Source: Solitalea canadensis DSM 3403
Lineage (GTDB): Bacteria > Bacteroidota > Bacteroidia > Sphingobacteriales > Sphingobacteriaceae
Assembly: GCF_000242635.2 (NCBI RefSeq)
Contig: NC_017770.1
Coordinates: 3,670,669-3,734,668, forward strand
DNA: 64,000 nt
Reading direction: 5' to 3'
Shown: piece by piece, positions 2,673 to 30,487 of the stretch
Position numbering within the stretch: position 1 is the stretch's first letter
Layout of the letters: the number at the start of each line of letters is the position of its first letter
Notes under the pieces: model-generated
Databases searched by the model: none
Seen by the model: the letters and a program-made list of their open reading frames with translations, nothing else
Told to the model about the DNA's origin: nothing
Translations under genes and position numbers: made by a program

Positions 2673-4106
2673 TTAATTCCACCCTCCTCCTAAAGCCTGA
2701 TAGATATTTACTACCGCATTCAATTGCTGTTTTTTTGTTTCCACCAATTCCAATTTGGCATCCAAAGCATCACGTTGAGTCATTAGTACTTCCAGGTAAT
2801 CAGCTCGTGCCGAGCGGAATAGATCATTAGAAATATCAATTGAATGGGTAAGCTCATCCACCTGTTTTGACTTTAATTCATAGCTTTTTTGTGAATTACT
2901 AATAGTAGACATCTGATTAGCCACTTCCACATAAGCATTTAAAATGGTGCGTTCGTAATTATAAATGGCTTGTATTTGTTTTGCATTAGCACTTGCTAGT
3001 TCTGCTTTTAAGCCATTCCTATTAATCAGCGGTGCCGCCAATTCACCCGCCAGAGAGTAAAGCATCGATTCGGGGAATTTAACCAAATAGCTCGGATCAA
3101 AAGCCTGTAATCCGATTGAGCCGGATATACCTAATGAAGGATAAAACTCTGCTCTTGCAGCCTTCACATCCAATTTTGCTGCTGCTAGTTCTAATTCTGC
3201 CTGCTTAACATCTGGTCGGTTAGCTAACAATTGGGATGGAATACCGACATGTATATCCGCGGGAATTAAATCTGTAAAATTGGTTGAGCTTCTCGCAATA
3301 GGCTGAGGATACCGGCCCAATAAGAAATTAATTCTATTTTCCGCTTCTGTGATCTTCTGTTGAATTTCGTATTGCAAACTTTGAGAGTTCAATACTTCGG
3401 CCGAAAATTTCCGTACAGCTAACTCTGTAACTCTGCTCGCTTCTTTTTGGATTTTTATAATCTCCAACGCATTGTTTTGCAGTTCAATGTTCTTTTTAAC
3501 GATGGTCAACTGCGTATCTAATGCTACTAATTCATAATAAGAGTTGGCTATTTCGGCCACAAGATTAGTTACAACGAAGTTCTTACCTTGTACACTTGCT
3601 AAATAACGGCTTACCGCTGCTTTCTTTTCATTGCGTAATTTATGCCAAATATCTACTTCCCAATTACCGTATACACCTAATAGATAATCAGGTAGCGGAT
3701 CTGGCATTTCTTTACCAGCCGTAATTTCTGTAGAAGCATCACCAGCTCCCTGACTGGTATATCTCCCTATTTTTTCTATCCCAACTCCAGCCCTAACTTC
3801 AACAGATGGCAACAATTGACCTTGTTTAAGCTTGATCTCGCTTTTAGCGATTTCCAATTCCTGTAAAGTAATTTGCAATTCCTGATTGCGATTCAGTGCT
3901 GTATCAATCAAACTATTCAAGTTCGGGTCTGTAAAGAATGACCTCCATTGAATCTTACCCGAATTTAGCGAATCGGTTGCGCTTACATAACTTAACGGAA
4001 CCTCTTTATTTTCTACTTTTTGAGTTGCCGCAGGAACTTTACAGCTTGCCATCGCAAAGCAAATTCCAGCCAGTCCTATACCCAGATATATTTTCTGTTT
4101 AAACAT
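2673..4106 (-). CDS. RND outer-membrane channel lipoprotein (TolC/NodT family)
   Basis: Outer-membrane efflux component of 477 aa that would form the trimeric exit duct of the tripartite pump encoded upstream. The signal peptide ends in a lipobox (FAMASC, Cys at about 22), as in NodT/OprM-type lipoproteins. The body has the duplicated OEP pattern: long coiled-coil helices alternate with beta segments, with typical blocks NSYYELVALDTQL, NRPDVKQAELELAAAK, AEFYPSLGISGSIG and YLEVLMTQRDALDAKLELV. It is the third gene of the operon, 14 nt after the RND permease stop. Confidence 0.94.
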   Translation of the reverse strand: MFKQKIYLGIGLAGICFAMASCKVPAATQKVENKEVPLSYVSATDSLNSGKIQWRSFFTDPNLNSLIDTALNRNQELQITLQELEIAKSEIKLKQGQLLPSVEVRAGVGIEKIGRYTSQGAGDASTEITAGKEMPDPLPDYLLGVYGNWEVDIWHKLRNEKKAAVSRYLASVQGKNFVVTNLVAEIANSYYELVALDTQLTIVKKNIELQNNALEIIKIQKEASRVTELAVRKFSAEVLNSQSLQYEIQQKITEAENRINFLLGRYPQPIARSSTNFTDLIPADIHVGIPSQLLANRPDVKQAELELAAAKLDVKAARAEFYPSLGISGSIGLQAFDPSYLVKFPESMLYSLAGELAAPLINRNGLKAELASANAKQIQAIYNYERTILNAYVEVANQMSTISNSQKSYELKSKQVDELTHSIDISNDLFRSARADYLEVLMTQRDALDAKLELVETKKQQLNAVVNIYQALGGGWN

Positions 4107-4120
4107 TACCTTTAAAATCT

Positions 4121-7100
4121 TCAGTTCAACACTTCTTCAATTTCTGCCATGTGACCCTCGACTAATTTGTTCTCAAGCTCTTCAGTCAGCGGTTGTTCAT
4201 CCTCAATCCGGATCAACTTATGTTTTTCAGCTATTTTACCGAAGATGTAATACAATCCAGGTATTACGATTACTCCGAACACGGTACCAAACAACATGCC
4301 TCCTGCAGCTGCAGAACCAATAGTTCTGTTTCCAATTGCACCCGGACCAGTTGCCATAACCAATGGAATCAATCCGGCAATGAATGCAAATGAGGTCATT
4401 AAGATTGGCCGGAACCTTACCTTCGCTCCTTCCATTGCGGCCCTGAATACGGATGCACCCTCGCTATGTCGTTGAACAGCAAATTCTACAATCAACACTG
4501 CGTTTTTACCTAACAATCCGATAAGCATTACCATGGCTACCTGTGCATAAATGTTATTTTCCAGTCCGAATATTTTTAAGAACAAGAATGCTCCAAAAAT
4601 TCCGGCAGGCAATGAAAGAATAACCGAAAGTGGTAAAATGAAACTTTCATACTGCGCAGCAAGGATCAGGTAAACAAAGCCAAGGCAAATAAGGAAAATG
4701 TAAACAGCTTCGTTTCCTCTTGAAACCTCATCTTTAGAGATACCAGCCCAATCAATACCGAAACCTCTGGGCAATGTTTTAGCAGCCACCTCAGTAATTG
4801 CCTTAATGGCCTCACCACTACTATATCCCGGAGCTGAAGAACCACTGATCTCTGATGAGTTATACATGTTATGACGAGTGATTTCAGACAGACCATAAAC
4901 TTTCTCCATTTTCATGAAGGCCGAGAACGGTACCATTTCACCTTTATCATTTTTAACATACAGCTTTAACACATCTTCAGGCAAAGCGCGATATTGAGGT
5001 AAGGCCTGCACCATCACTTTATACTGCCGATCGAATTTGATGAAACTGGTTTCATAGTTACTACCAATTAAGGTAGAAAGCGTATTCATTGCATTATCAA
5101 TAGTCACACCTTTTTGCTGTGCAATGTCATTATCGATTCGCAACATGTATTGAGGGAAACTCGCACTGTAAAAGGTGAATACAGAGGCTAACTCTGGTCG
5201 CTTGCTAAGTTCTTTCACAAAATCACGACTCACCGTTTCCATCTTTTTGTAATCACCACTACCGGCTTTATCCAATAAACGTAACTCAAAACCACCTGCA
5301 GCTCCATAACCAGGCACTGCCGGCGGTTGGAAAAACTCAATACTGGCCCCGGTAATGTCTTTTGATTTCTCTTCCAACTCATTGATTATATCCTGAGCTG
5401 ATTCCTTACGATCTTTCCAATCTTTAAGGTTGATCAAACAAGTACCAGAGTTAGCACCGGTACCCTCGGTTAAAATCTCATAACCCGCTAATGAAGAAAC
5501 CGACTTAATTCCATCAATTCTCTCCGCAATCGACTGTAGTTTTTCTGCAACCTGATTGGTTCTTTCCAAAGATGATCCTGGAGGAGTTTGAATAATGGCA
5601 TACACCATTCCCTGATCTTCATTTGGAATAAAACCGCTCGGTACACTATTATTTAAAATCCCTACTCCAATACAAAATGCCGCCAACACACCAAAGGTTA
5701 CTATTCGTCTGCTCACCACCTTATTAAGCACCAGTTCGTACTTAATGGATAGCTTTTCAAACAATCGGTTGAATCCATGTAAGAAACGATCTACAAGAGT
5801 TTTCTTTTTAGCTTTCCCATGGTTATTCTTTAACATCATGGCACACAATGCAGGTGTTAAAGTAAGCGCCACCAATCCCGAAAGAATAATGGCTGTTGCC
5901 ATAGTGATTGAGAACTGACGATAGAAAATACCTACCGGGCCCGACATAAAGGCTACTGGAATAAACACTGCCGCCATCAGGAAGGTAATTGCGATAATAG
6001 CCCCACTGATTTCCCGCATGGCGCGTTGTGTAGCTTTTAATGGGGAGAGATGATATTTCTCCATGTTAGCGTGAACTGCTTCGATTACCACAATCGCATC
6101 ATCCACAACTACACCAATGGCCAATACCAATGCAAAAAGCGTGATCAGGTTTAAAGTAATACCAAAAAACTGCATGAACACGAACGTACCCACTAATGAT
6201 ACCGGAACCGCAATTGCCGGAATAATGGTGGAACGCCAGTCGCCTAAAAAGATGAATACTACTATACCTACCAAAATAAAGGCTTCGACCAGGGTATGAA
6301 TTACTTTTTCAATAGAAGCATCTAAGAATTTAGACACATCATAACTGATTTCATAGTCCAGCCCCTTAGGAAAATCTTTTGATTTTAGTTCCTGCATTTT
6401 GGCCTTTACATCAGCAATAACCTGACTTGCATTACTTCCGTATGCCTGTTTTAATACAATGGCAGCAGATCCTCTTCCGTTAAGATTGGAGTACAAATCA
6501 TACATTGAGCTACCAAATTCAATATCGGCAACATCTTTTAATCGAAGTAACTCGCCATCAGGACTAGAACGTAACACTATATTTCCATATCCATCTTTGG
6601 TGCTATACCTACCTGGATATTTTAAAACATATTCGAAAGCCTGTGAACGTTTGCCTGAACTTTCCCCTGTTTTACCCGGAGATGCTTCAATACTCTGTTC
6701 ATCCAATGCTTTCATAACTTCATCAGCAGAAATTTTATACGCCAGCATGCGATCAGGTTTTAGCCAAATCCTCATTGCATACTCGCGGTTACCTAAAATA
6801 TCGGCAAAGCCTACTCCATCAACCCTTTTTAACTCCGATAAAATGTTTATATCAGCAAAGTTGTAAAGGAAGTTTTCATTCATTTTAGGATCCTTGCTAT
6901 AAAGGTTGATATACATCAACATATTCGACTCTTCACGACTAATCTTTACCCCTTCTCGAATTACTAACGGCGGCAATTTATTAGTTACCGCAGCTACACG
7001 GTTCTGCACATTCAGCGAAGCCTGATTAGGATCGGTTCCTAAGTTAAAAACCACTTGAATGGTTGCTTCTCCATCATTACCTGCATCAGAAGCGATGTAT

Positions 7101-19103: not shown

Positions 19104-20324
19104 ATGGAAACACCAGAATTTGATTTAGAGTTTATTAAGAAGAAAGCCTTGGAGCAGTTTCGCTCAGGTAAGTCTCTGTACGGCAAAGAAGGGGCATTCG
19201 CACCATTGCTGAAACATTTTTTAGAAGCCGCCTTGCAAGCAGAGTTAGAGGGCCATTTGGATGAGGAGGAACGCAACTCGGGCAATCGGAAGAATGGCAA
19301 AGGCCAAAAGCAACTCAAAACGTCCGATGGAACGCTGACCATCGAGACTCCCCGCGACCGAACCGGCACCTTTGAACCCGAACTGATCCGAAAACGGGAA
19401 ACCATCCTGGCCGAAAGCCTAGAGTCCAAGATACTGGGGATGTACGGCCTGGGGATGAGCTTCCGGGACATCTCCAAACACATCAAGGATATGTATGACA
19501 CGGACATCTCCCACGCCACCCTGAGCGCCATTACCGACAAGATCCTCCCGCAGATAAAAGAATGGCAAAGCCGTCCTTTGGAAGAACTGTACACTATCGT
19601 TTGGCTGGATGCCATGCATTATAAGGTGAAAGAAGATAACCGGGTGGTATCGCGGGCTGTTTACAACATTCTGGGCATCAATCGTTATGGTAAAAAAGAG
19701 CTATTGGGCATGTACGTCTCGCAAAGTGAAGGCGCCAATTTCTGGCTGGGCGTACTGACCGATTTAAAGAACCGTGGAGTCAGCGACATCCTGATCGCCT
19801 GCATTGATAACTTAAAAGGCTTTGCAGAAGCCATTAACGCTGTTTTTACCGAAACAGAAGTACAAACCTGCATCGTTCATCAAATCCGCAACAGTCTGAA
19901 ATACGTGGCCTCTAAAGATCAAAAAGAGTTCATGAAAGACCTGAAGCCTGTTTACCAGGCTGTAAACAAAGATCTGGCCGAATTACGGCTGGAGGAACTG
20001 GAGGAGAAATGGGGCAGGAAGTATCCGGTGGTCTTGCAGTCCTGGCGCCATAACTGGGAAAAGCTTAGTACGTATTTCAAATACGATGTGGCTATCCGAC
20101 GTTTGATCTATACGACCAATACCATTGAAGGCTTTCATCGGCAGGTACGCAAAGTGACCAAAACCAAAGGCGCCTTCACCTCGGACACGGCCCTGATCAA
20201 ATTGATTTATCTGGCCCATGGCAACATCAGCCAGAAATGGACCATGCCGCTGACCAACTGGGCCCAAACCGCCTCTCACCTGGCCATTTGGTTTGATGGA
20301 AGAATGAAGTTAGATTTGAACTAA
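19104..20324 (+). CDS. IS256-family (Mutator-like) transposase
   Basis: DDE transposase of 406 aa that cuts and pastes the surrounding element. The catalytic triad is readable as D169 (VWLDAMHYK), D235 (IACIDNLKGF) and E342 (TNTIEGFHRQVRK), with the C/H-rich insertion block TCIVHQIRNSLKYV between the second Asp and the Glu. The N-terminal region carries the ELEGHLDEEERN / NRKNGKGQKQLKT block typical of the family. The length is normal and no frameshift is seen, so it is likely functional. The start at 19104 follows a hairpin and T-run. Confidence 0.97.
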   Translation: METPEFDLEFIKKKALEQFRSGKSLYGKEGAFAPLLKHFLEAALQAELEGHLDEEERNSGNRKNGKGQKQLKTSDGTLTIETPRDRTGTFEPELIRKRETILAESLESKILGMYGLGMSFRDISKHIKDMYDTDISHATLSAITDKILPQIKEWQSRPLEELYTIVWLDAMHYKVKEDNRVVSRAVYNILGINRYGKKELLGMYVSQSEGANFWLGVLTDLKNRGVSDILIACIDNLKGFAEAINAVFTETEVQTCIVHQIRNSLKYVASKDQKEFMKDLKPVYQAVNKDLAELRLEELEEKWGRKYPVVLQSWRHNWEKLSTYFKYDVAIRRLIYTTNTIEGFHRQVRKVTKTKGAFTSDTALIKLIYLAHGNISQKWTMPLTNWAQTASHLAIWFDGRMKLDLN

Positions 20325-26388: not shown

Positions 26389-27564
26389 TTACATTAATTC
26401 AAAAATTCCTGCTGCACCTTGCCCTGTACCTACACACATGGTTACCATACCATATTTTTGCTTACGCTCGCGAAGTTCATTTAACACTTGAACGGTTAAT
26501 TTTGCGCCAGTACAGCCCAATGGGTGACCTAATGCAATCGCTCCTCCGTTAACATTCACGATATCAGGGTTTAATTCTAATTTACGGATAATCGCTAAAG
26601 ATTGTGATGCAAACGCTTCGTTCAACTCAATCAGCTCGATATCTTCTTTCTTCATTCCGGCTTTTTTCAAAGCAACTGGAATAGCTTCAATCGGACCAAT
26701 ACCCATGATACGAGGTGGAACACCTGCAACTCCATAACTAACCATACGAGCTATCGGTTCTACATTTAATTCCTTCAGCATTTTCTCTGAAACAACTAAT
26801 ACAAATGCAGCTCCATCTGAAGTTTGTGAAGAGTTACCTGCTGTAACACAACCATCTGCAGCGAATACCGGCTTTAGCTTAGCTAACTTATCTAGTGCAG
26901 TATCTGCACGCGGACCTTCATCGGTATCCACCACATACTCGCGGGTTTTCTTCTTCATGTTCGCATCCAGGTAGTTTTCCTTTACAGTAATAGGAACAAC
27001 ACCCGCTTTAAGTGAGCCACTCTGCAAAGCTTTAATCGCTTTTTGGTGTGAGTTAAAGGCAAAAGCATCCTGATCTTCACGCGATACATTATATTCTTTT
27101 GCCACTGCTTCGGCTGTTAAGCCCATACCCCAATAGTAATCAGGGTTATTTTTAGCCACATCAAAATTTGGAACGATCTTCCACCCGCCAAATGGCATGC
27201 CCGACATTACTTCAACCCCTCCGGCAACAATACAATCGGCCATTCCTGCTTTAATCTTAGCAGCTGCAATAGCAATGGTTTCTAAACCCGATGCACAATA
27301 ACGGTTAACAGTCATCCCCGGAACCTTATCTGTCTTTAATCCCATTAAAGAGATCATACGACCAATATTTAAGCCTTGCTCAGCTTCCGGAGTGGCGTTA
27401 CCTACAATAACGTCATCAATTTTTTCTTTATCTAAATTAGGAACAGACGCAACCAGATGATCTACCACTTCGGCAGCCAAATCATCAGCACGCATGAAAC
27501 GAAATACTCCACGAGGAGCTTTTCCAACGGCGGTGCGGTATCCTGCTATAATGTATGCTTCCAT
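26389..27564 (-). CDS. fadA: Acetyl-CoA C-acyltransferase (3-ketoacyl-CoA thiolase)
   Basis: Thiolase of 391 aa that cleaves 3-ketoacyl-CoA in the last step of beta-oxidation. Nucleophile C90 (RYCASGLE), H347 (ALGHPLG) and C377 (MCVGTGQG) are all present. The start is placed at the ATG at 27564 (MEAYIIAGYRTAVGKA), because the 32 codons upstream read through a dispersed repeat and have no thiolase similarity. The resulting 391 aa equals the length I recall for B. subtilis FadA. It is second in the fadN-fadA-fadE order, separated from fadN by a GIY-YIG gene framed by inverted repeats. Confidence 0.95.
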   Translation of the reverse strand: MEAYIIAGYRTAVGKAPRGVFRFMRADDLAAEVVDHLVASVPNLDKEKIDDVIVGNATPEAEQGLNIGRMISLMGLKTDKVPGMTVNRYCASGLETIAIAAAKIKAGMADCIVAGGVEVMSGMPFGGWKIVPNFDVAKNNPDYYWGMGLTAEAVAKEYNVSREDQDAFAFNSHQKAIKALQSGSLKAGVVPITVKENYLDANMKKKTREYVVDTDEGPRADTALDKLAKLKPVFAADGCVTAGNSSQTSDGAAFVLVVSEKMLKELNVEPIARMVSYGVAGVPPRIMGIGPIEAIPVALKKAGMKKEDIELIELNEAFASQSLAIIRKLELNPDIVNVNGGAIALGHPLGCTGAKLTVQVLNELRERKQKYGMVTMCVGTGQGAAGIFELM

Positions 27565-27602
27565 ATTTCTTTTAGATTTCTTTAAAGTAATTCCCCTTTT
27601 CT

Positions 27603-27626
27603 TGTCATCCTGAGGCACGAAGGATC
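27603..27626 (+). repeat. Left arm of the inverted repeat framing the GIY-YIG gene
   Basis: TGTCATCCTGAGGCACGAAG (first 20 of 24 bases) recurs in inverse at 28043-28066 with one mismatch. The wording TGTCATCCTGAG..GAAGGATC is of the dispersed palindromic type often seen between Bacteroidota genes (from memory). Confidence 0.85.
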
Positions 27627-27674
27627 TGTTAGTTTTTAGCACTATTTCGACATGCTTCACTCCGACAATCAGGG

Positions 27675-28010
27675 CTATTCTTTATACTCAATTAACATTT
27701 CTCTACTTGGTGGCCATGCCTCCATAACCAGTTCATTCCAGAAGTTCCAATCAGAATTTTCATTCTCTATCAAACTCTCTTTTTCAGCTCGAGTCCATCC
27801 TTTCAGTTCTTTCTCTCTATTTATTGCGTCTTCTATGTATTGAAAACGCTCGTAATAGATAAGAAAGTGAACGTTGTATTTCTTAGTAAAAGAATGCTTT
27901 CCGAAATAATGCTCAACCAGGCGTCTTTCTAAATTGTTAGTTACACCTACATATAAAACAGCCTTGTTCTTATTTGTAAGGATGTAAACAAAATATTGAT
28001 GGTCTCGCAT
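27675..28010 (-). CDS. Stand-alone GIY-YIG nuclease domain protein
   Basis: A small protein of 111 aa consisting of one GIY-YIG domain: F8-V9-Y10 in place of GIY, Y20-V21-G22 in place of YIG, R29/R30 and the metal ligand E66 in NREKELKGW. Stand-alone members of this UPF0213/UvrC-N-like class are common in Bacteroidota and their targets are unknown. It sits inside the fad operon between fadN and fadA, framed by 24-bp inverted repeats (27603-27626 and 28043-28066), which suggests insertion as a unit. No partner methylase or restriction gene is nearby. All catalytic positions look intact. Confidence 0.9.
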   Translation of the reverse strand: MRDHQYFVYILTNKNKAVLYVGVTNNLERRLVEHYFGKHSFTKKYNVHFLIYYERFQYIEDAINREKELKGWTRAEKESLIENENSDWNFWNELVMEAWPPSREMLIEYKE

Positions 28011-28042
28011 ATGCTATTCTTTCAAGTAATTCTTCGGAAAGA

Positions 28043-28066
28043 GATCCTTCGTTCCTCAGGATGACA
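28043..28066 (-). repeat. Right arm of the inverted repeat framing the GIY-YIG gene
   Basis: The complement reads TGTCATCCTGAGGAACGAAG plus GATC and matches the left arm at 23 of 24 positions. It ends 16 nt before the 3' end of fadN (28082), so the framed unit falls exactly in the fadN-fadA gap. Confidence 0.85.
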
Positions 28067-28081
28067 CGCTTATGAACTTTT

Positions 28082-30487
28082 TTAATTCCTCAACGGTTTA
28101 CCTTTCGTTAAAATACTTTGAATACGTTCCAGGGTTTTCTTTTCGCCGCAGAGAGAAAGGAATGCTTCACGCTCTAGGTCTAACAGGTATTTCTCCGTAA
28201 CGATAGTCGGAGCAGAAAGATCTCCGCCACACATTACCCAGCCTAATTTCTCTGAGATCTTTTTATCGTGCTCAGAAATGTAATTACCTGAATACATAGT
28301 ATTGGCACCTGCGTAAACCATACCTAAACCAGATTTTCCTAACACTTTGATATCCTTGCGCTGAACTGGCTGAACATAACCTGCCTCAGCTAATTCGATT
28401 GCTTTTGCTTTCGCATCGGCAATCAGGCGACTGCGATTCATGGAAATATCAAACTTGTCTTTTTGCAAATAACCAAGATCATAAGCCTCTAATCCTGAGG
28501 TTGAAACCTTTGCCATTCCTATAGTTAGAAAACGATCTTTCAGTTCGTTTTGTTCTATTTGTCCTTCACCAAAAGCGTCAGAAGCACGTAAAGTAAACTC
28601 TTTCGTTCCTCCTCCTCCTGGGATTAGTCCGACACCAAATTCCACCAATCCCATATAGGTTTCGGCATTTGCCTGAACAAAATCGGCATGCAGACACAGT
28701 TCACAACCGCCGCCTAAGGTTAAGTTATGAGGAGCGGCCACGACAGGAATCGATGAGTAACGAACACGCATCATGGTATTTTGGAACTGACGGATGGCAA
28801 AATCAACTTCATCCCAATCTTGCTCTACAGCCATCATGAAGATCATTCCTACGTTAGCTCCGGCCGAGAAGTTACCACCATCATTACCAACAACTAATCC
28901 ACGGAAATCTTTTTCGGCTAACTCAATTGCTTTGTTTAATCCCGAAAGCACTTCACCGCCGATGGTATTCATCTTTGTGTGGAACTCAACGTTCAAAATT
29001 CCGTCGCCTAAATCAGTAACAGTAGTTCCTGCGTTTTTCCATACTGTTTTGGTCGGGCGAATGGTATCTAACACAATGTATTCGGAAGTACCAGGAATTG
29101 CTTTAAATGATTTTGATGGAATATCATAGTACAATTTCTGTCCGTTATCAATTTTGTAGAATGAAGCATTTCCGGCTGCAAGCATTTCAGTTACCCAAGC
29201 TGCAGGTGCATGACCGTATTTTTTCATCATTTCAACACCTTCGGCAACGCCTAAAGCATCCCAAACCTCATACGGACCTAATTCCCAGCCGAAACCTGCA
29301 CGCATTGCATCGTCAATGCGATATAACTCATCAGAAATTTCAGGAATACGATCCGACACATATTCAAATAAACCGGCAAATGAATTACGGAAGAACTCAC
29401 CAGCTTTATCGGTTCCCTTTGAATAGGCTTTCATACGGGCACGTAAATCCTCAATTGGTTTCAACATCTCCAATGTTGCTGATTTAACCTTTTGTTGTGG
29501 CTCGTATGCTAATGTTTTAAGATTTAACGAAAGAATCTCTGATCTGCCATTTGCTCCTTTGATCTTCTTATAAAACCCTTGACCGGTTTTATCGCCTAAC
29601 CAATTGTTCTGTTCCATTTTTGCTACATAATCAGGCAATTTGAACAGCTCACGAGCTTTATCGTCCGGACAGTTATCATAAAGTCCTTTGGCCACTTTGA
29701 TCATAGTGTCCATACCAACAACATCTGTAGTACGGAATGTTGCCGATTTCGGGCGACCTAAAACAGGGCCTGTAAACTTATCAACTTCATCTACTGTCAG
29801 CTCCATTTTTTCTACCAAATGAAGCATGGCCATGATACCGTAAACACCTATACGGTTAGCGATAAACGCAGGAGTATCTTTACACAATACAGTGGTTTTT
29901 CCAAGGAACTTATCACCGTAATGCATTAAGAAATCAATTACTTCAGGGTTTGTATGTGGAGTTGGAATAATCTCCAATAAACGCAGGTAGCGTGGTGGAT
30001 TAAAGAAGTGCGTTCCGCAGAAGTTTGCTTTAAAATCATCACTCCTGCCTTCAGCCATCATATGAATTGGAATACCTGAAGTATTTGAAGTGATCAGCGT
30101 ACCCGGTTTACGGAACTTTTCAACTTGTTCAAACACCTTCTTTTTAATATCCAAGTTTTCAACAACTACTTCAATTACCCAATCACACTGAGCAATATCC
30201 TTCATGTTGTCGTCGAAGTTTCCTGTACTGATTTTATTAAGAACCTCTTTATTGTAAACAGGAGAAGGGTTGGTTTTTACCGCTGTTTCCAGGGAGCTGT
30301 TTACAATCCGGTTTCGAACAGCCGGACTTTCTAAGGTCAATCCTTTCGCTGCTTCCTGAGGCAAAGGTTCCTTAGGAACAATATCAAGCAAAAGTACCTC
30401 AAGCCCGATATTGGCGAAGTGGCAGGCGATACGGGAACCCATAATTCCCGAACCTAACACCGCTACTTTTTTAATTATTCTTTTCAT
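28082..30487 (-). CDS. fadN: 3-hydroxyacyl-CoA dehydrogenase / enoyl-CoA hydratase (FadN type)
   Basis: Bifunctional beta-oxidation enzyme of 801 aa performing hydration and NAD-dependent oxidation. The dehydrogenase half comes first: Rossmann GSGIMG at 12-17, NTSGIPI, and CGTHFFNPPRYLRLLEI followed by a second helical HAD-C domain. The crotonase half is C-terminal, with GGGCE (E596) and VEFGVGLIPGGGG (E616), the pair of catalytic glutamates 20 apart. This order is opposite to E. coli FadB/FadJ and matches B. subtilis FadN (about 789 aa, from memory). It is the first enzyme gene after the MarR gene in the leftward fad operon. Confidence 0.94.
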   Translation of the reverse strand: MKRIIKKVAVLGSGIMGSRIACHFANIGLEVLLLDIVPKEPLPQEAAKGLTLESPAVRNRIVNSSLETAVKTNPSPVYNKEVLNKISTGNFDDNMKDIAQCDWVIEVVVENLDIKKKVFEQVEKFRKPGTLITSNTSGIPIHMMAEGRSDDFKANFCGTHFFNPPRYLRLLEIIPTPHTNPEVIDFLMHYGDKFLGKTTVLCKDTPAFIANRIGVYGIMAMLHLVEKMELTVDEVDKFTGPVLGRPKSATFRTTDVVGMDTMIKVAKGLYDNCPDDKARELFKLPDYVAKMEQNNWLGDKTGQGFYKKIKGANGRSEILSLNLKTLAYEPQQKVKSATLEMLKPIEDLRARMKAYSKGTDKAGEFFRNSFAGLFEYVSDRIPEISDELYRIDDAMRAGFGWELGPYEVWDALGVAEGVEMMKKYGHAPAAWVTEMLAAGNASFYKIDNGQKLYYDIPSKSFKAIPGTSEYIVLDTIRPTKTVWKNAGTTVTDLGDGILNVEFHTKMNTIGGEVLSGLNKAIELAEKDFRGLVVGNDGGNFSAGANVGMIFMMAVEQDWDEVDFAIRQFQNTMMRVRYSSIPVVAAPHNLTLGGGCELCLHADFVQANAETYMGLVEFGVGLIPGGGGTKEFTLRASDAFGEGQIEQNELKDRFLTIGMAKVSTSGLEAYDLGYLQKDKFDISMNRSRLIADAKAKAIELAEAGYVQPVQRKDIKVLGKSGLGMVYAGANTMYSGNYISEHDKKISEKLGWVMCGGDLSAPTIVTEKYLLDLEREAFLSLCGEKKTLERIQSILTKGKPLRN

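Follow-up and report, generated by a model that had tools for sequence, protein, structure and literature searches.

A GIY-YIG Nuclease Gene Framed by REP-Like Inverted Repeats in the fadN-fadA Gap of Solitalea canadensis: A Probable Analog of the RAYT-REP Systems

Introduction

GIY-YIG enzymes are hydrolytic nucleases. A study of 2025 reportedly describes the Ssn proteins of Neisseria, a GIY-YIG family that cleaves single-stranded DNA site-specifically at a repeated sequence, and these proteins are said to have many homologues of differing specificity. The enzyme encoded in the DNA analyzed here, a 64,000-nucleotide stretch of the Solitalea canadensis genome (the window), resembles them in being a single-domain GIY-YIG protein of about 100 amino acids that adjoins many copies of a short repeated target. 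Cleavage of single-stranded DNA is reported for Ssn and may be predicted for the window enzyme. We take Ssn to be the probable family of this nuclease; if the Ssn proteins are as reported, the gene in the window would most likely be related to them.

The CGTC-tagged REP superfamily was described by Di Nocera et al. (2013, PMC3733652). According to the accessible part of that report, these repeats carry the tag CGTC, often TGTC, a stem of 8-9 bp that starts with AT, a loop of 4-5 nt, and a CCA tail, and they occur mostly as head-to-head dimers, in some families as heterodimers. The same part of the text assigns them no dedicated transposase and describes no transposase gene flanked by CGTC repeats; the term 'giy-yig' is absent from it, and no GIY-YIG partner is named there.

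Another close comparison is offered by the RAYT (TnpA-REP) systems (GTAG REPs, REPtrons, and REPINs), in which, according to the accessible part of PMC8266576, the enzyme gene is framed by its own hairpin repeats and the enzyme and repeats co-evolve. The locus described here is alike in both respects and differs in having a GIY-YIG enzyme instead of an HuH Y1 protein and in its tag, which is GTC and not GTAG. The presence of cognate flanking repeats together with the absence of a Y1/HuH enzyme supports the description of the locus as one that works like a RAYT-REP system and is no member of that class. In the accessible part of the openly licensed literature (CC0, CC BY, or CC BY-SA), nothing was found linking GIY-YIG proteins to REPs, and the words nuclease and transposase are absent from the accessible part of PMC12306157.

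The reading that we favor, and consider probable, is that the window contains a unit of a nuclease and its cognate REPs, which works like a RAYT-REP system with an unrelated enzyme and has been inserted into the fadN-fadA gap.

Results and Discussion

The Nuclease Gene and Its Repeats

The fadN-fadA gap in the window is 517 bp long and corresponds exactly to positions 27565-28081. Its upstream operon neighbor, fadN (28082..30487, minus strand), is an ORF whose order with fadA is seen in relatives. The downstream neighbor, fadA (26389..27564, minus strand), starts with the ATG at 27562-27564, the longer ORF from a GTG being mechanical. Between them lies an intact ORF of 111 amino acids with an ATG start (27675..28010, minus strand), which encodes a single-domain GIY-YIG nuclease (Pfam PF01541, E 7.5e-16, with a score of 58.6 bits that exceeds the curated cut-off of 22.6).

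The gene is bracketed by the arms of an inverted repeat, TGTCATCCTGAGGCACGAAGGATCT at 27603-27627 (plus strand) on its 3' side and TGTCATCCTGAGGAACGAAGGATCT at 28042-28066 (minus strand) on its 5' side. The first arm is composed of a TGTC tag, an ATCCT stem, a 9-nt loop, AGGAT, and CT, and the tags of both arms point outward. An initial annotation of this DNA had placed an intact single-domain nuclease between inverted arms in this gap, and so it is found; the arms, given there as 24 bp with 23 matching positions, are slightly longer and read as 25 bp with 24 matching. Allowing at most one mismatch, TGTCATCCTGAGS occurs only at the two arm sites in 64 kb, with a chance expectation of 0.05. A possible decayed second REP half adjoins the downstream arm (27650..27677, minus strand); the likeness is weak and was judged by eye against the inverted pairs found elsewhere in the genome. 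A lone window arm folds weakly (5 bp, z 0.18).

The window arms share their tag and stem start (TGTC-ATCCT) with the CGTC REPs and differ from them in a perfect stem of 5 bp, a loop of 9 nt, and a CTG or CTC tail in place of CCA. Judged by these letters, they would be a form related to the CGTC REP superfamily and not a strict member of it.

Approximately 7 kb from the nuclease-repeat unit, a 406-aa ORF (19104-20324, plus strand) looks by eye like a mutator-type transposase.

The Enzyme

In an alignment of 49 rows, the residues Y9, Y20, G22, V23, T24, R30, H34, and N85 of the window protein are invariant and E66 is nearly so (at least 90% of the rows); the Tyr, Gly, Arg, His, Glu, and Asn residues among them are presumably of the catalytic type. 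The AlphaFold2 model was obtained with very high confidence per residue (pLDDT in the low nineties) and high confidence in the overall fold by pTM. The closest solved structures have the same single-domain fold and belong to the UPF0213 GIY-YIG proteins (PDB 1zg2, 1ywl), with BH0048 ranked first and followed by the branched-DNA nuclease SLX1, none of the matches having E < 0.001. A group I intron homing endonuclease was considered and rejected, as TIGR01453 gives only 21.8 bits against a cut-off of 56.05. The Solitalea genome contains four PF01541 matches, two of them in short stand-alone frames. Repeats flank only the match in the window; the other three have none.

Association of Nuclease Relatives with Hairpin Repeats

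Relatives of the window nuclease were collected by protein similarity alone in three sets, 149 loci in total (80 + 29 + 40): the best 80 of 431 loci from GTDB genomes, the best 29 other loci from 151 genomes of the same family (140 of these genomes have a match), and 40 loci picked from the listed family matches in multi-copy genomes. The region within 350 bp of each gene was searched with the pattern GTC-ATnnn…n'n'n'AT-C, whose demand for a perfect 5-bp stem and a GTC tag leads to undercounting of repeats. A REP-like hairpin was found near 121 of the 149 genes (70/80, 25/29, and 26/40 by set), and on both sides of 87 of them, while 28 loci have no repeat by this pattern. After collapsing at 80% identity, 101 of 120 proteins, the window locus counted in, still have a repeat. 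Arm orientation is variable, since 42 of the 87 two-sided loci are tag-outward.

Controls with altered tags detected repeats at 1-6 of the 149 loci. No hairpin was found within 350 bp of any of 30 ParE loci, fetched from matches in 61 genomes of the family, or of any of 30 Y1_Tnp loci from eight genomes (30 of the 32 matches in nine genomes). In the 80-locus set the repeat density is 6.9 per kb within 100 bp of the gene and 0.14-0.29 per kb past 400 bp; in the family set it declines more slowly, to 1.46 per kb at 400-700 bp and then to 0.14-0.23 per kb. A motif-free comparison, made on GIY-YIG genes with full flanks and on other ORFs from the same loci, gave exact inverted repeats of at least 14 bp bracketing 32 of 102 GIY-YIG genes versus 2 of 548 other ORFs, and direct repeats of at least 20 bp at 40 of 102 versus 2 of 548. 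In eight genomes searched with one query (a sample overlapping the first set), repeats accompany 12 of 13 close relatives (E < 1e-16) and one of six distant ones. The link between GIY-YIG genes and repeats that the initial annotation had anticipated is close to certain, the repeats being strongly enriched at these genes.

Among the 80 GTDB loci, with phyla taken from record titles and many of the records being MAGs, repeats are present at 33 of 38 loci from Bacteroidota and 19 of 20 from Bacillota. Each of 13 further named phyla has at least one carrier (Acidobacteriota 1/2), the single loci from Chloroflexota and Buchananiibacteriota have none, and two of three loci without a phylum name have repeats. 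A Planktothrix plasmid adds Cyanobacteriota, bringing the association to 16 named phyla. Viral contigs contain 15 nuclease relatives, eight of them with repeats.

An alphaproteobacterial set was formed by the best 29 GIY-YIG loci, such loci having been found in 63 of 142 genomes of the class of a Roseibium genome. By a strict pattern, 17 of the 29 have CGTC-type repeats, versus 0-1 with altered tags; the remaining 12 have no repeat by this pattern, a few of them showing variant tags or stems. The canonical CGTC form is seen at some of these loci, for instance CGTCATCCCCGCGAAGGCGGGGATCCA, and the stem, loop, and CCA-tail features are strictly present at loci such as L321 and L331; L303 and L320 have GTC tags with other stems.

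Among 35 named records, eight were inspected and six of these have repeats. For instance, the GIY-YIG gene of Azospirillum lipoferum 4B lies between sufB and sufC with three canonical repeats, and records from Shinella, Spirosoma, Planktothrix, and Aeromonas have 2-6 repeats at the gene. In Sinorhizobium meliloti only a CCTC-tagged repeat form was found, and that of R. tumorigenes is also CCTC-tagged. The GIY-YIG record of Novosphingobium aromaticivorans has no repeat by these patterns; both this species and A. lipoferum 4B are treated in the accessible part of PMC3733652. In a Neisseria gonorrhoeae record the GIY-YIG gene lies inside an array of 16 CGTC/dRS3-like repeats, and its product shares 44% identity with the window protein across an alignment of 84 positions (E 3e-20).

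By their wording, the repeats of all these loci appear to fall within the CGTC-tagged REP superfamily or just next to it. The initial annotation had called the unit unrecognized, and this label is only partly right: the enzyme probably falls into the Ssn family, reportedly described in 2025, and the repeats lie in or beside a superfamily that has been described (PMC3733652).

Correspondence between Enzymes and Stems

Starting from 822 YGTCAT anchors at the 5' side, the next three bases find their complement followed by ATC downstream in 466 cases, compared with a mean of 63 and a maximum of 80 of 822 with shuffled stems. Two repeats within one locus have the same stem in 57% of pairs (439/774); the figure is 10% (66/656) when the two repeats come from separate GIY-YIG loci within a genome. 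In multi-copy genomes (n = 34), stem sharing is 0.60 with the nearest homologue in another genome versus 0.15 with same-genome paralogues. When all 122 repeat-bearing loci are considered, it is 0.52 with the nearest homologue versus 0.15 at random. These counts include orthologous loci in sister genomes, which inherit protein and repeat together. Stem labels placed on a FastTree protein tree (94 columns, 65 of 145 inner branches unresolved) require 50 changes, versus at least 70 in 200 shuffles. The stem is better predicted by the protein than by the genome. The likeness to the RAYT-REP link, which had been suggested for this locus from the outset, extends to this co-variation of enzyme and stem.

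Nuclease match counts and TGTCATNCTGAR copy numbers are correlated over the 151 genomes (rho 0.53, kinship ignored; 0.03 for the reversed-motif control). The median is 13 copies in the 72 genomes with a match of E <= 1e-12 and four in the other 79.

Repeats in the Solitalea Genome

The arm wording had been described as dispersed, and indeed TGTCATCCTGAG has 25 exact sites in the 5.2-Mb genome, versus one for the reversed control. Two of these are at the window gene, ten belong to a second family, and 13 are solitary. Ten of the 13 solitary copies form inverted pairs with tags 71-73 bp apart, head-to-head as in the CGTC REPs, and eight of these ten combine one ATCCT and one ATGCT repeat. Solitary inverted pairs across the genome are reportedly also the REPIN feature of the RAYT-REP systems. 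In a 0.8-Mb sample of the genome (40 stretches of 20 kb each) there are 33 pattern matches, no excess over the 12-43 given by altered tags; going by wording, nine of these matches are REPs, and each is of the ATCCT/ATGCT kind seen beside the window gene.

The two solitary pairs that were folded each give a single long hairpin (z -9.5 and -8.9). Such strong hairpins, together with the position of SLX1 as the next nearest fold after UPF0213, would suit an SLX1-like structure-specific resolvase that removes replication-stalling hairpins, the flanking repeats serving as regulators or terminators of its own gene. We consider this quite improbable, since an enzyme acting in trans needs no place beside its substrate, and self-regulation predicts neither the genome-wide dispersal of the repeats nor the two-sided arrays.

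The second, larger repeat family (L005-L012, L014, L015) also starts with the REP wording. Eight of these ten sites are in same-direction arrays, spaced 185-466 bp, and the sites are located near 13, 45, 742, 915, and 1469 kb of the genome.

Repeat Populations without a Cognate Nuclease

Six high-copy genomes were searched with a profile of the nuclease family, and in five of them, which have 24-274 repeat copies, no intact cognate nuclease was found. Three of these (G081, G093, and G100, with 24-53 copies) have only GIY-YIG genes that lack repeats, and in G088 (138 copies) the sole repeat-flanked GIY-YIG gene is of another stem class. In G016, which has 274 TGTCATNCTGAR copies, the search gave one partial weak nuclease match (E 3.6e-4) and no Y1_Tnp match; its repeats look like an orphan population. 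The sixth genome (G144, 285 copies) has an interrupted nuclease gene framed by six repeats, the displayed ones ATCCT, as well as an intact nuclease gene of another stem class.

Repeat populations for which no cognate nuclease was found, and the two Y1_Tnp matches in the Solitalea genome, could be taken to mean that another enzyme (RAYT/Y1 or IS) spreads the repeats and carries the GIY-YIG gene as a hitchhiker. Among transposases this was examined for Y1_Tnp: the 30 loci from eight genomes mentioned above all lack these repeats within 350 bp, and G016 has its 274 motif copies with zero Y1_Tnp matches. A Y1/RAYT partner is accordingly unlikely, and the hitchhiker explanation as a whole very improbable, also because no transposase gene flanked by CGTC repeats is described in the accessible part of PMC3733652.

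The fadN-fadA Gap in Related Genomes

Of 61 genomes of the family, 43 have a fadN match, and 30 of these loci, that of the window among them, were compared. None of the 29 other loci has a GIY-YIG gene in the fadN-fadA gap. The gene is thus not conserved at this place in the relatives examined; together with the enrichment of repeats at GIY-YIG genes, this is the opposite of both outcomes that would have spoken against the initial annotation. The gap is 2-135 bp long in 18 of the 29, so that adjacency of fadN and fadA, expected from the start, is the commoner state, and 321-692 bp with other content in the remaining 11. Two genomes of the genus (G029 and G004) have short gaps of 78 and 88 bp with neither the gene nor a REP; a third genome of the genus (G046) has a different insert in the gap. 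In one further locus (L228) the gap has a REP, and the nuclease gene is absent. In another genus, the next gap of the operon, fadA-fadE, is occupied by the gene of a 59%-identical nuclease (L117 in G001); repeats lie on both sides, their stems being ATCCT and ATTCT.

The fadN-fadA gap is a general insertion spot. In nine of the 29 relatives (L212, L215, L217, L218, L221, L224, L230, L237, and L239) it contains a PF05635-type gene, the assignment having been confirmed by Pfam for two of the nine; PF05635 is the four-helix-bundle, 23S rRNA-intervening-sequence protein, and the gene starts soon after the fadN stop. Several of these genes are framed by degenerate repeats, e.g., GAGTATTGGGTATTGAG and CTCAATACTCAATAC, and may represent another small gene with its own repeat family.

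The other small inserts in this gap, and the REP in L228 with no nuclease gene, are what one would expect if nuclease genes and repeats both simply collected in permissive intergenic gaps. Against such a coincidence stand the ParE (0/30) and other-ORF (2/548) controls and the enzyme-repeat co-variation, and its probability is next to negligible.

With respect to movement, the orthologous gap of G029 lacks one of the solitary repeat pairs of the Solitalea genome. At fadN-fadA and at one solitary pair, the intergenic DNA is too diverged, and neither an exact insertion junction nor a target duplication came to light; a second solitary pair has no usable orthologous flanks for a junction search; a comparison of Rhizobium plasmids gave no clean empty site. 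In Labilibaculum the nuclease gene stands beside the same upstream sequence in five related genomes, with variable repeats around it, and because of this constant place we consider the nuclease to be vertically inherited in some lineages. The proposal of a small mobile or repeat-propagating unit thus stands in part. It is supported by the RAYT-REP-like pairing and by the absence of the gene in relatives; no target-site junction, a gene fixed in place in Labilibaculum, and many repeats in genomes where no cognate enzyme was found count against it. The data fit a repeat-spreading enzyme that is often inherited vertically and are no proof of movement.

The fixed place in the five Labilibaculum genomes, and the gonococcal relative lying among its 16 CGTC repeats with 44% identity over 84 positions, would suit a host nuclease of the Ssn type, which cuts single-stranded DNA at the repeat and modulates DNA uptake or recombination, the repeats marking self and not being spread by the enzyme. 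Neisseria Ssn is reportedly a precedent for a nuclease with a repeated target acting in this way. This explanation is unlikely: taken alone, it does not account for paralogues of one genome whose different stems match those of foreign relatives, for the absence of the gene at this site in near relatives, or for the interruption of operons (fad here, suf in Azospirillum).

Proposed Action and Significance

We return to the favored reading of a nuclease-REP unit that works like a RAYT-REP system. In this lineage, the fadN-fadA gap would have received a self-contained unit made up of the GIY-YIG gene and two inverted copies of its own cognate hairpin. The nuclease would most likely recognize the repeat as a single-stranded or cruciform hairpin by its GTC tag, the stem starting with AT, and the closing AT-C, and would nick it. 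Through cutting and repair, new intergenic sites could then receive copies of the repeats and at times of the gene as well, so that solitary inverted pairs (~72 bp, REPIN-like) would be left across the genome. Since GIY-YIG enzymes are hydrolytic, such spread would proceed via host repair or recombination and not by direct strand transfer. Recognition, cutting, and copying of the repeats by the nuclease are what we infer from the data as a whole. Action of the enzyme on the repeats is likely; their spread by it is a hypothesis, at present the one that best explains the data.

In a wider and more tentative reading, the CGTC-type REP superfamily as a whole could owe its dispersal to small GIY-YIG nucleases dedicated to this task, with a specificity code relating enzyme to stem; we hold this to be possible, if somewhat short of probable. 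As a part of it, and put forward with the same reserve, these nucleases might form a second REP-propagating system, with an enzyme unrelated to the RAYTs, in 16 named phyla and with REPIN-like pairs. The REP-enzyme partnership would then be a solution reached more than once. A matching stem sequence is predicted for each enzyme, and many genes annotated merely as 'GIY-YIG nuclease family protein' would be repeat-linked units and not repair genes. Unless the Ssn study already reports as much, the present analysis adds that the putative targets can be equated with CGTC-type REPs in many phyla, that enzyme and stem co-vary within genomes, that Y1 partners are lacking, and that relatives do not have the unit at fadN-fadA. 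The enzyme that handles the CGTC REPs was left open in the accessible part of the 2013 description (PMC3733652), and the GIY-YIG nuclease is now a specific candidate.

Repeat Arrays and Gene Neighborhoods

Tandem REP-containing units occur beside the nuclease gene in L031 (approximately 3742-3945, 32-bp period) and L044 (approximately 2920-4650, 176-bp period). In two Rhizobium plasmids, a unit of about 260 bp near the GIY-YIG gene, with CCTC-tagged repeats, is tandem in one (L365) and single in the other (L366). Labilibaculum manganireducens (L056) has two GIY-YIG copies separated by approximately 1.9 kb, and many repeats lie both in the interval and around the pair. Finally, on the Planktothrix agardhii plasmid (L335) the GIY-YIG gene with its repeats has an MmeI-like restriction gene on one side and the DISARM gene drmA on the other.
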